From the NCBI GenBank assembly GCA_002224055.1, contig AZLU01000018.1, positions 215,147 to 279,146 on the forward strand: 64,000 bases of DNA, written 5' to 3'. Each line of letters opens with the position of its first letter. Within the stretch, counting starts at the first letter, position 1. Source of the stretch: Pezizomycotina sp. ARF18 (lineage: Eukaryota > Ascomycota). Both the position numbers and the translations under genes were made by a program. The notes under the pieces were generated by a model. It worked only from the letters and a program-made list of their open reading frames with translations, had not been told where the DNA came from and searched no databases. Of the stretch, positions 17,822 through 22,758 are shown in pieces.

Positions 17822-19160
17822 CACTTCATCGGCATCGGCGGCGGCATGTGCCCCTGCGCCAGCTGATGTAAACCTAGGCTACAAAATCCAAGGCAGCCAA
17901 ATAGCCGACGAACCAACGTAACCTCCTCCGTAACAAGGCATACACAGTTTCGTCGCAACAGCCGAAAACATATCCGGCCAAGCTCATCGTCGCGACCAGC
18001 GCCGTCGTGTAGCGAATCCCGAAGTAATAGCGCGCACGCAGCGGGTTTACGATCGTCCACGCGCGGAAATGCTGAGCGAGCTATGCGGTGGAAGAAGTCT
18101 GTTGCGGTGTCGCGGTGTAATGGGAGAGCAGCACGCGGCGCTGGTCGCTTGTGTACTTGATGGCGTGGGGTTGAACCTAGCGTCGTTAACGGCGGACGTA
18201 ACGGGTTAATGACCGGTTTAGGTTCGGGAAAGATAGCGTGGCTCGTCGTCGAGACGGACGAGAGCGACGGTCGTTCGTAGCATGGCGAAACTCTCTCGCG
18301 GTCGTCGTGACGAATTTGGATTTGGATTATCGGGTTCGTGGCCAACTAAAGAGAGCCTGCGTCGAAGGATTGCTGCATTTATCAGCGCGATACCATTCTA
18401 CGGACTTGCGGTGTATGCATCGACGATCCAGCCATGAAAGAGTTGCTGCAAAAGGTGAACAGGCCGATAATCCGGTACGGCTTCTCCGAGGACGCGGACG
18501 TGCGTATCAGGGACTTGGTACCCGAAATAAAGGCTCCACGTTCTCGGTCGACATTCGCGACCGCGGCAACGGGAGCCTGCTCCGCTCGATAGATCCATGG
18601 CCTACCGTTCTCTTGCGAAATAATGTTTCAGAAGCCACCGCTGCGTTGCATGCTGTCGAGCAGGCGCCAACGATAAGCGATATTAAAAAGGCCTCGGAGG
18701 CTACCAGGCGTCAACCCGCTTCATCGTCCTGGCGAAGTAAGGTGTAACCGTCGTAGATACTTTACGAATCCCGCTCGTCGTCGCGACGACTAAGATGCTA
18801 AGCAAGCTGGCGCCCGCAACGTGATCCCTATATACGATGCTGGCGGCGACGAAGTCTTCGCGTGTACAACAGGATATGCGACATGTTTTGGGCTGCAAAA
18901 CGTCTTTGTGATCGGCATTGTTGGAAAAGTCTGAGCGGTGTGCATACGAGGCGGAAGTAGACGGCGTAAAGAAGACGGTCCCTATAGATGACGACGCGAT
19001 GATGAAGGTGCTGCAAAGCGAAAACCATCGATTTTACACTCGTCAAGATGGACACGCGTGAAGGACTTGCCCGCCTTGATCGGAAGGTAGCAGAACCGGG
19101 TGACTTTGTTGTATATATGGGGAAATGCCAGAGATAGCTCATGGTGTTTTGAGGGAATGA
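17822..19160 (+). CDS. murC: MurC-like UDP-N-acetylmuramate:L-alanine ligase homologue, frame-broken
   Basis: MurC is a bacterial cytoplasmic ATP-dependent ligase that adds L-alanine to UDP-MurNAc. Matches in order, plus strand: HFIGIGG at 17822, [13 protein letters not shown] at 17862-17910, LIVATSAV near 17981-18005, RAEMLSEL near 18064, a P-loop region near 18102-18130, VVETDESDG at 18245-18271, TNLDLDY at 18310-18330, IPFYGLAV at 18390-18413, then a clean run from [14 protein letters not shown] to [10 protein letters not shown] (18416-18505), [14 protein letters not shown] near 18622-18660, [11 protein letters not shown] near 18832-18865 and PGDFVVYMG at 19096-19122, ending in [13 protein letters not shown] at 19160. 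The length of about 445 codons fits MurC. The canonical GTHGKTTTT nucleotide loop is not readable in any frame, and the DPDHLDHYG-type segment is shortened. From memory the [10 protein letters not shown] and IPFYG style recalls alphaproteobacterial MurC. There are no obvious introns. The frame is interrupted many times, by base-call error, decay or both. Confidence 0.8.
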
Positions 19161-19260
19161 AGAAACTCTTCGTAGAGAAATATATATTCTCAACAATAAT
19201 GACCTGTACTTAGCCTTCTAGATAGACCTCGCTACCGAGCAAGATTACTATATTTTAGAT

Positions 19261-20343: not shown

Positions 20344-21606
20344 GGAAGAAATTTACGAGTCCAATACATATCTGCTCTGCTCGAATATATTGGGAATTGC
20401 GGCATGAATTTTTTGAATTTCTTTTTCGATATATATTGTTTATTTTTTATTATTTATTTTATTTTTTATTTTATTTTATTTATTTTATTTTCGCTCAATA
20501 CAAATTATAACCCCCCTTCTAAATCCAGATGAATAGAAACTTCACTCTTCCTTTTCATTATTCACGAGCTCTTCTGCTCGATAACCTCGAATTAAGGCGT
20601 TAATGCTACTCGCCTGTAAATCAGCGAAGACTCCTCTCATGAATATTATATATATATATTTTCCTTTCAACCTCTCCATCAGGTGCATGAAAAATTCGTA
20701 CTTGTCAGTGCCTGTTCCTGTTTTTTTCTTCCCCACCAGTACCTAGCCCACAGCATCCATCATCTCGGCGTTTTGTACTACATTTGGTAGGCGAGGTGAT
20801 CTTCGCGGATTTCCTCATTGAATCGCTCTTTCAATTCCTCTGGTTGAAATTGGGTACGCAGTACGCAGGTTGACATGGATTCATTCAGCACAAACATAAT
20901 GACAAGCTGAGGACGCGACGAAAAGCTGCGCATCGGAACATGAACTGGGAATGCTTAAAATGCAATTTGACTTGCAAGCGACAACCGAATGCGAGACGAC
21001 AAAAAAATGACAAGCAGGTTTCCATGCGGAACGTACGGGAAAATGGAAGCAGATTCTCACCCTATAACAGCAATTGGGGGATAGACTTTTTTCTTTTGCT
21101 AACCCTGGGCGACTTCTGCAGGTTGACGTTCATGGTGTCCACAAAATCGGATATTTGCTTTGGAATTATTCTCGTTTGGCCTTTTTGAACACTCACTAGG
21201 CCGTTTTTGACGCAGGATCACTGCAAGCTGAATCGATGATCCACTCAAACTCTAGGCGGGGACATCGATTGATCTTTGCCAGCGACCAACCCGTTTTCTT
21301 TCACTGGCATTCAGGATCGCCGCTTATGAATTTTAAATGGCGAGTATGACAGAGGAAGAGAAAAGGAAAGCATTGAGGATAGCGCAGATTAGATTGCATC
21401 AACCACCCCAATGGTAAAGCTTTTCGAATGATGTGGATCTTGCGTCGCTAATATATTTTCCTTTCCTTGCATTGAAGAATACATATTCTGCATGATTTTT
21501 TCGTGTTTGAAGCAAAAAAGAGTCCTGATGCAATTGTGCGGAATATCAAACTTCCTGAATTATTTTTTTCTTATTCTTCACGAAATCCCTATTTCAAAAT
21601 TGCGCA
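20344..21606. other. Spacer between murB and murA with unassigned minus-strand coding signal
   Basis: Contains an A/T-rich block (20430-20510) and minus-strand open pieces. The best is 20542-20736, reading KYEFFMHLMERLKG and RGVFADLQASSINALIRGY, in one frame with an upstream NVVQNAEMMDAVG piece (about 20740-20780) apart from a single stop. A PEELKERFNEEIREDH piece lies near 20800-20850. These look like a decayed or indel-broken gene of about 100-250 codons that I cannot name. Confidence 0.4.
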
Positions 21607-22758
21607 ATGGCAGCAGCTCTAATAATAAACGGAAAATGTCTATTAGAAGGAGTAGTCAAAGTATCAGGTTCGAAAATGGTAGCCTCCCGATCATGGGGGC
21701 GCTTCGCCGAGCGGTGAGGAGTCACCTCCACGACGTTCACGGGTGAACGATGTTACAACTTGTGCAGACTCATTGGGTCATTGCGCGAGCACTTCATTTA
21801 CAGAAACAATATACTATCACATAAAAAAGACCATATCGGAGCACGGATATATGCCCGAAAGTTAGCGGGCTGATTCGGGCGTCGATTTTTACTATTGGGT
21901 CGCTGCTGGCGAGGCTCGGACACGCGAGGATACGCTTCCGGGAGGCTGCGCTATTGCGAAGACCAATGACCAACATCTCAGAGGATTAATGTGCCTTGGT
22001 GCGACGGTTATCGCTGGGTTCGTTGAAGCAGTCGCGCCGAAGACAGAACGAGCGAAATCACGATATACGGCCGAAACGGCTAAAGCCTTTCAAGCACAAA
22101 GTCATTGGAGACAGGATCGAAAGCGGAACGCTTCTAATAGCTGGAGCAATGCTTGGGAACCCATTGATTATTGACGGCTGCAATTACGAGCAACAAAAGA
22201 CCCTCATAGACGCTCTTCGACTGGCGGGCGCACAAGTTGAGTGCGGTGGACATTCGACTGTCAAGGTCTATAGAGCGAGAGAATTGAAGGCGATGAATAT
22301 CGAACGGGTCCATACCGTACTTTCCCACGGATCTACAACCACAGTTCATGACTCTCCTAGCTTAGCTCATGGTACAAGCACTGTAACGAGAATGTCTTTG
22401 AGACAAGATTTGGAAGCGCTGGGCTTTCTGCCATGGGAGCAGACATCGTCGTCGACGACGATTGTAAAACCGCTGCCATACAAGGAACGCGCGGGCTTTC
22501 AGCCAGTCAGTCTCTTCAACAGACTTGAGATGTGGAGCTTCGCTGCTCCTGGCGGGACTAGTAGCAGAGGGCAACACAATAATCGAATCAACGGAACACC
22601 TCGATCGCGGCTATGATGGTATCGAACAGAAATTAATCGATGTTGGAGCCGATATTATTAGAATCGATAAAGACGATTCCGGTTCGGAAACATCAGAAAC
22701 TACATCTATCGACAGCTCTCCGCCATCTTCTAGCTCATCTATCGCTTCAACTCCCTGA
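21607..22758 (+). CDS. murA: MurA-like UDP-GlcNAc 1-carboxyvinyltransferase with Ser-rich tail
   Basis: MurA transfers enolpyruvate from PEP to UDP-GlcNAc, the first committed step of peptidoglycan synthesis, and belongs to the EPSP-synthase fold. From the ATG at 21607: [19 protein letters not shown], then SLPIMGAL after a one-base slip, preserving the Lys-Asn pair of the active site; [42 protein letters not shown] (21873-21932); PGGC with the catalytic Cys codon at 21947-21949; [73 protein letters not shown] with the catalytic Asp at 22330-22332; [63 protein letters not shown] with the conserved Arg at 22606-22608. The last 25 or so codons are a Ser/Thr/Asp-rich tail, unlike bacterial MurA. 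Breaks are mostly single-base homopolymer contractions, so the real gene may be intact. I recall some fungal proteins labelled EPT/RTPC-like, which may be relatives. Confidence 0.88.

Follow-up and report, generated by a model that had tools for sequence, protein, structure and literature searches.

Linked murC-, murB-, and murA-like sequences in an ascomycete chromosome look like a relic of bacterial cell-wall genes

We analyzed a 64-kb stretch, here called the window, of contig C18 (350,589 bases) in the assembly of the ascomycete Pezizomycotina sp. ARF18 (46.4 Mb, 408 contigs). Three Mur homologues, resembling murC, murB, and murA, lie inside 4.9 kb of it (17.8-22.7 kb of the window), in a segment that occupies 232.6-238.1 kb of the contig. 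The murC- and murA-like genes are on the plus strand and the murB-like gene is on the minus strand; none of the three has an open frame in this assembly. On balance, we favor an old transfer of mur genes from a bacterium to a fungus, with at least part of the transferred set now dead. To our knowledge, fungi build no peptidoglycan, and thus genes for three consecutive steps of precursor synthesis would record that they were once used or that a bacterial partner was once present.

Three Mur homologues and their setting

The MurA-like gene matched the TIGR01072 model with 69.8 bits in one frame (E 5e-20) and 45.1 bits in another, and a genome-wide profile search returned it with E 4e-19. The better score is below the model cut-off of 392.7, but as the match is split between frames, it is a lower bound. 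We aligned the gene to P0001, a MurA of 418 residues encoded on a Logan contig of 27,475 bases, and found 51.3% identity over 339 codons, with 13 frame breaks and no stop. The active-site columns R92, C116, R121, D305, R331, D369, R371, and R397 (P0001 numbering) are all kept. We take the E. coli active site to consist of Cys115, Arg91, Arg120, Asp305, Arg331, Asp369, Arg371, and Arg397; the position of Lys22 coincides with a frame break. Also retained are the RAS, TDLQ, RF, TDLR, and DRGY motifs, along with the active-site cysteine, and the two proteins share odd residues around GLxALGA and QPQFM. P0001 has unusual residues of its own at nearly invariant sites, such as those of the TGTEN and FENRF motifs.

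What the MurA-like gene lacks is a block of 58 contiguous codons near position 22039, so that nothing in it corresponds to residues 150-207 of P0001. The UDP-binding loop, which we presume to lie near residues 160-164, is inside this block. The missing block was not present elsewhere in the window, nor was it found by the genome-wide family search.

The MurB-like gene was recognized by PRK00046 (56.6 bits, E 2e-15) and by MurB_C (E 0.001), while a single frame reached only E 0.11 in the PDB search. Alignment to E. coli MurB gave 40% identity over 288 codons, with 21 frame breaks and two stops. We also compared the gene with a set of 24 sequences, consisting of E. coli MurB and 23 of 30 further loci, the seven weakest having been dropped. 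Frame breaks numbered 11-19 over these references, and stops ranged from none to six depending on the reference (two against E. coli, four against the best-scoring locus, L110). From their roles in E. coli, we take Tyr158, Arg159, Ser229, and Glu325 to be the functional residues of type I MurB. Tyr158, Arg159, and the final Glu are kept in the E. coli alignment, and the Ser229 column lies on a frame break. The gene contains a tandem duplication, and LGGGSNALFTQP appears twice in its translation, in two different frames.

The MurC-like gene matched Pseudomonas MurC (6x9f) by phmmer with E 1e-6, covering residues 11-313 of that protein; the Pfam Mur_ligase match by itself is weak (E 0.029). A frame-aware alignment to the Pseudomonas protein showed 40% identity over 277 codons, with 14 frame breaks and two stops. 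With other references, we counted 18 breaks over 371 codons (P0123) and 24 over 413 (P0136), and stops varied from none to three over six references. The N-terminal and central domains are clear, whereas the C-terminal part is poor and its limit varies by reference. The ETDESDG motif is present, and the ATP-binding P-loop (GTHGKT/S) is absent in all three frames. Judged by its sequence, then, the gene is homologous to MurC overall but fails at the defining P-loop motif. The second-best MurC match, P0122, was set aside, as its second half resembles another Mur ligase; it probably comes from a chimeric metagenome contig.

The three genes descend from MurA, MurB, and MurC, and their tested features still agree with the active site of MurA and, as it seems, with most motifs of MurB. 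A first-pass annotation made from the letters of the window had proposed three linked Mur homologues at this place, and NCBIfam models, phmmer, and alignments bear it out. Its description of motif sets over the full lengths of the enzymes does not hold for murA, with 58 codons missing, and is doubtful for the murC C terminus. It mentioned neither the minus-strand position of murB nor the lack of open frames.

A whole-genome DNA search returned the mur segment once, with no second copy; the other 15 matches were all to the T-rich tract between 20.41 and 20.50 kb. A plasmid DNA search gave no match. Whole-genome searches with murC and murB family models returned nothing, a result that means little because both models miss genes that are present in the window. 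In a genome search for Mur ligase domains we obtained one weak match, on another contig (E 0.033), and the MurC of the window was again missed.

Fungal genes lie on both sides of the mur segment in the same contig (Table 1). The named species among the 120 ISWI matches listed are, as we take from general knowledge, ascomycetes, the best being Rhizina undulata (74%), and in an ISWI tree the host came out next to Pezizomycetes and Lipomycetes but could be placed no more closely. The fungal flanks of the first-pass annotation therefore stand, by virtue of the MutS-family, IEC3, and ISWI genes, and its tRNA-Ser is real. Its zinc finger at 12-14 kb has no Pfam match, and its intron-containing gene at 25 kb has no family match in Pfam or PDB. 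Just left of murC, positions 16560-17043 of the window hold direct repeats of 26-49 bp spaced 227-258 bp apart. The stretch at 14000-17800 has no second copy in the genome.

Table 1. Features of the window, with positions counted from its first base
Feature	Position	Strand	Basis
murC-like gene (UDP-N-acetylmuramate--L-alanine ligase family)	17822..~19168	+	PDB phmmer, frame-aware alignment, conserved columns
murB-like gene, type I (E. coli MurB kind)	19300..20304	-	NCBIfam PRK00046, E. coli alignment, 24-sequence comparison
Tandem duplication of 67 bp within murB (two copies)	20055..20186		Tandem Repeats Finder
Spacer between murB and murA	20305..21615		40% GC; T-rich low-complexity tract at ~20408-20503, of a kind present elsewhere in the host genome
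murA-like gene (UDP-N-acetylglucosamine 1-carboxyvinyltransferase family)	21616..22665	+	NCBIfam, genome profile search, P0001 alignment
MutS-family gene fragments (MutS_III, MutS_V), left flank	7936..9882	-	Pfam
tRNA-Ser(GCT), left flank	11659..11741	-	ARAGORN, Rfam
IEC3 subunit of Ino80 complex, right flank	29775..30677 (stop-to-stop frame)	-	Pfam PF14612, E 1.8e-9
ISWI chromatin-remodelling ATPase, right flank	33900..37500	-	PDB phmmer 5jxr, E 6e-77; alignment; homologue search

Assembly error, residue retention, and decay

Two copies of the ribosomal DNA (rDNA) differ by 41 gap openings against only seven mismatches over 2,245 columns. As a control for frame breaks that arise in assembly, we used the ISWI gene of the window. 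Aligned to Myceliophthora ISWI, it has 16 breaks over 405 codons in all: 12 over 229 codons in the ATPase part (87% identity), three plus one stop over 69 codons in the N-terminal part (55% identity), and one over 107 codons in the C-terminal part (80% identity). The gene is thus broken about every 76 aligned bases. A host Hsp70 gene with mitochondrial proteins as its best PDB matches (mtHsp70) has seven breaks over 610 codons and no stop. The densities in MurA (13 breaks in 339 codons), MurC (14 in 277), and MurB (21 in 288) are at or above the ISWI level.

Most of the mur frame breaks are errors of an indel-rich assembly. Since host genes are broken alike, the breaks are no proof of decay, and we rejected pseudogene status on these grounds; nor did we draw decay from the mur break counts, because distant homology inflates such counts. 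More generally, pseudogene calls made from frame breaks in unpolished assemblies need host-gene controls. Mismatch error looks low, and therefore substitutions in the mur genes count as real.

The rDNA array lies on contig C189, where six 18S starts are spaced about 10.8 kb apart. One 18S match (L152, 20-2120) spans 2,101 bases against a model of 1,831 positions and therefore contains about 270 inserted bases, which may represent a group I intron.

Because the assembly is rich in indels, how recognizable the mur genes have stayed can be read only from their retained residues. MurA keeps 40 of 44 aligned invariant columns, with eight more in the gap and two on breaks. MurB keeps 27 of 33 when aligned to L110 and 28 of 34 when aligned to E. 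coli MurB, and MurC keeps 16 of 26. Retention is higher in MurA than in MurC (p = 0.005). In leave-one-out controls with ten MurAs, P0001 kept 54 of 57 columns and the others 54 of 54 or 54 of 55. Eight bacterial MurBs kept 37 of 37 or 37 of 38. Among ten MurCs, eight scored 28 of 28; the others were the chimeric P0122 (28 of 35) and the distant P0233 (28 of 40).

We simulated neutral decay of MurC and MurA at three rates. With conservation columns taken from the 107 of 115 MurC matches longer than 430 residues, MurC retention in four conservation classes was 0.63, 0.47, 0.41, and 0.23. Simulation at 0.2 substitutions per site gave 0.64, 0.48, 0.36, and 0.17, which matches MurC. MurA retention was 0.87 in columns conserved at 95% or more and 0.50 in the next class, a pattern that none of the three rates reproduced and that argues for purifying selection during much of its history. 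This suggests that selection acted for a long time on MurA, if not on the others, whether in the donor line, in the fungus, or in both. Less surely, MurB would have been selected for a good part of its path.

Origin of the locus and competing accounts

The oligonucleotide make-up of the mur segment is within the range of the host. The tetranucleotide profile at 17.8-22.8 kb correlates with that of the host part of the window at 0.59. For comparison, 19 overlapping host segments gave correlations of 0.31-0.81, with six below 0.59, and 26 bacterial 5-kb pieces from seven loci reached at most 0.47.

In two trees of MurA sequences, P0001 is sister to the gene of the window (Shimodaira-Hasegawa-like approximate likelihood ratio test [SH-aLRT] 99 in both; bootstrap 100 in the second). 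In the first, the two belong to a clade of 21 rows, most of them without a name, that includes one Deltaproteobacteria metagenome-assembled genome and one record named for Ceraceosorus bombacis, which is a fungus. After five Myxococcota genes were added for the second tree, the 17 clade rows entered in it were still separated from the rest, Myxococcota included, with 100/100 support. On these alignments MurA, and MurA only, sits among bacterial MurAs in a supported tree. The branches of MurB (3.2) and MurC (5.7) were too long for placement, compared with 1.5-1.7 for MurA.

Identity of the window MurA to its listed relatives is at best 51-54%. None of the 27 loci entered in the first tree, drawn from the 80 kept of at least 592 stretches in one scan of genome contigs, joined the clade. 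We name no donor, because the nearest Myxococcota genes to the clade member P0008, among 377 genomes, reach only 61%. P0001 could be a relative of the donor or the same transfer in another fungus. A full-length MurA filed under Ceraceosorus bombacis, P0105, lies on a 1.6-Mb contig and has 54 of 54 invariant residues; it may belong to a contaminating or symbiotic bacterium or represent another transfer. A literature search on Ceraceosorus contamination found no paper.

Horizontal acquisition into a fungal chromosome, as the first-pass annotation had proposed, is supported by the flanks, the composition, the MurA tree, and the single copy found. In the course of events that we favor, murC, murB, and murA would have come to lie side by side in an ascomycete chromosome, or in that of an ancestor, and the transferred DNA would then have taken on much of the host composition. 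MurA, and less surely MurB, would have been under selection for a long part of the time since their split from known bacterial genes. The ligase would have been lost first, with its P-loop gone and its sequence drifting freely. The transferase and reductase would have followed, through the MurA deletion, the MurB duplication, and stops. What the data show is the homology, the location, a single copy in the searches made, the assembly errors, and the lost residues; we infer this order, and with it a single joint transfer, an earlier function in the fungal host, and the loss of function today.

As assembled, the locus should yield no UDP-N-acetylmuramoyl-L-alanine (UDP-MurNAc-L-Ala) and probably no UDP-N-acetylmuramic acid (UDP-MurNAc). 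Since MurC has lost its P-loop and MurA its UDP-loop block, the earlier suggestion that the genes may have been reused to make a UDP-muramic-acid-like compound is not supported in its present form.

Several points weigh against an old transfer that is now partly dead. The differences between rDNA copies may be partly true and are inseparable from errors. Retention in MurB does not differ significantly from that in MurC (p = 0.14), and the simulations covered MurA and MurC. At 0.2 substitutions per site, neutral simulations (n = 8) produced 2-8 stops, compared with 0-3 in MurC, and MurC may be a changed but expressed protein. Retention in MurA could reflect a function that persists today, or selection confined to the donor line, and its gap could be an assembly loss. 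Two of the 19 host segments score under the best bacterial piece, and the mur gene bodies are richer in guanine plus cytosine (GC; 49-55%) than the spacer (40%) and the host part (44%). As for a joint transfer, MurA belongs to a clade in which few rows are named, MurB is of type I, and MurC has no firm neighbor; murB is also opposite in strand to murC and murA.

An account that we regard as possible, if unlikely, is that MurA and MurB, or all three proteins, are intact and expressed. The breaks and the MurA gap would then be products of poor assembly, UDP-MurNAc or a relative would be made, and MurC would not ligate alanine or would be otherwise employed. MurA has a break density equal to that of ISWI (13/339 and 16/405), no stop in 339 codons, and its active-site cysteine and motifs; MurB keeps Tyr158, Arg159, and the last Glu; and MurC has few stops. 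However, if MurA and MurB function at present, the MurA gap must be an assembly loss, and it measures 58 codons, whereas the measured assembly errors are small. The MurC motif was lost by substitution, and rDNA mismatches are few (7 in 2,245 columns). MurB has zero to six stops, depending on the reference, and a 67-bp duplication. That the search for Mur ligase domains gave one weak match, on another contig (E 0.033), also speaks against this account, weakly, as the same search missed the MurC of the window. We therefore disfavor the view that the fungus still produces UDP-MurNAc.

Alternatively, the three genes may have been joined by independent transfers from more than one bacterium, or by rearrangement following a single transfer. 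Bacterial murC and murB neighbors are usually co-oriented, and the opposite strand of murB and the unequal branch lengths of MurA, MurB, and MurC fit such a history. Yet three successive pathway steps lie within 5 kb, and the genome searches found no other copy, an arrangement unlikely to arise by chance, and we consider this origin improbable. Likewise improbable is a lineage of ascomycetes with a selected murA-murB pair and a MurC relative devoid of ATP binding, together making UDP-MurNAc or a relative. P0001 would then stem from the same transfer, carried by a relative of the fungus, and the MurA gap would be an assembly loss.

The poor quality of the assembly could also hint at a chimeric join or bacterial contamination, but this would require two junctions within a single contig, both spacer and composition resemble the host, and MurA is only 51-54% like its listed relatives. 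Nor would an essential bacterial MurC be devoid of its P-loop, and we judge an artifact of this sort very improbable. Although each NCBIfam match is under its curated cut-off (with frames split) and the one-frame MurB match in PDB reached only E 0.11, chance resemblance in low-complexity or random frames is refuted by the E-values of MurA (5e-20), MurB (2e-15), and MurC (1e-6) and by ordered motifs across hundreds of codons.

Comparison with known systems

The locus looks like a striking relic rather than proof that a fungus makes bacterial wall material. Were any part of it still at work, a bacterial cell-wall precursor would be among the products of a fungus; and if it is no more than a relic, it still documents the transfer of linked pathway genes. 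Among the open PMC papers listed for the terms we used, none deals with mur genes in the chromosome of a fungus; the first-pass annotation likewise knew of no described linked trio.

The genes belong to the same families as bacterial MurA, type I MurB, and MurC (TIGR01072, PRK00046, and TIGR01082), with the same order of motifs and most of the invariant residues of MurA and MurB. They differ from these families in residing in a fungal chromosome, in lacking an open frame in this assembly, and in the MurA gap, the lost MurC P-loop, the MurB duplication, and the opposite strand of murB. P0001, the sister MurA, differs from the gene of the window in having an open frame and the block that is absent here.

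Mealybugs carry murA-F, bacterial cell-wall genes, in the nucleus, and plant, algal, and insect hosts with nuclear peptidoglycan genes keep a plastid or a bacterial partner. In contrast, no such partner is known for the ascomycete host here, and its three genes lie within 5 kb. It is already known that plants, algae, and insects can have peptidoglycan genes in their nuclei and that fungi can have D-amino-acid genes of bacterial origin. Peptidoglycan genes are described in moss and glaucophyte nuclei (PMC9434261, PMC6704402) and genes of bacterial origin in aphids (PMC9116674); like the mealybug genes, these are cases of bacterial cell-wall genes in a eukaryotic nucleus, as is the locus described here. 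Transfers from bacteria to fungi are described for D-amino-acid enzymes, including racemases, oxidases, and related enzymes, in a paper whose main text contains no word beginning with "mur" (PMC5169069). Those transfers likewise place a bacterial gene in a fungal genome, with different enzymes from the three Mur homologues found here.

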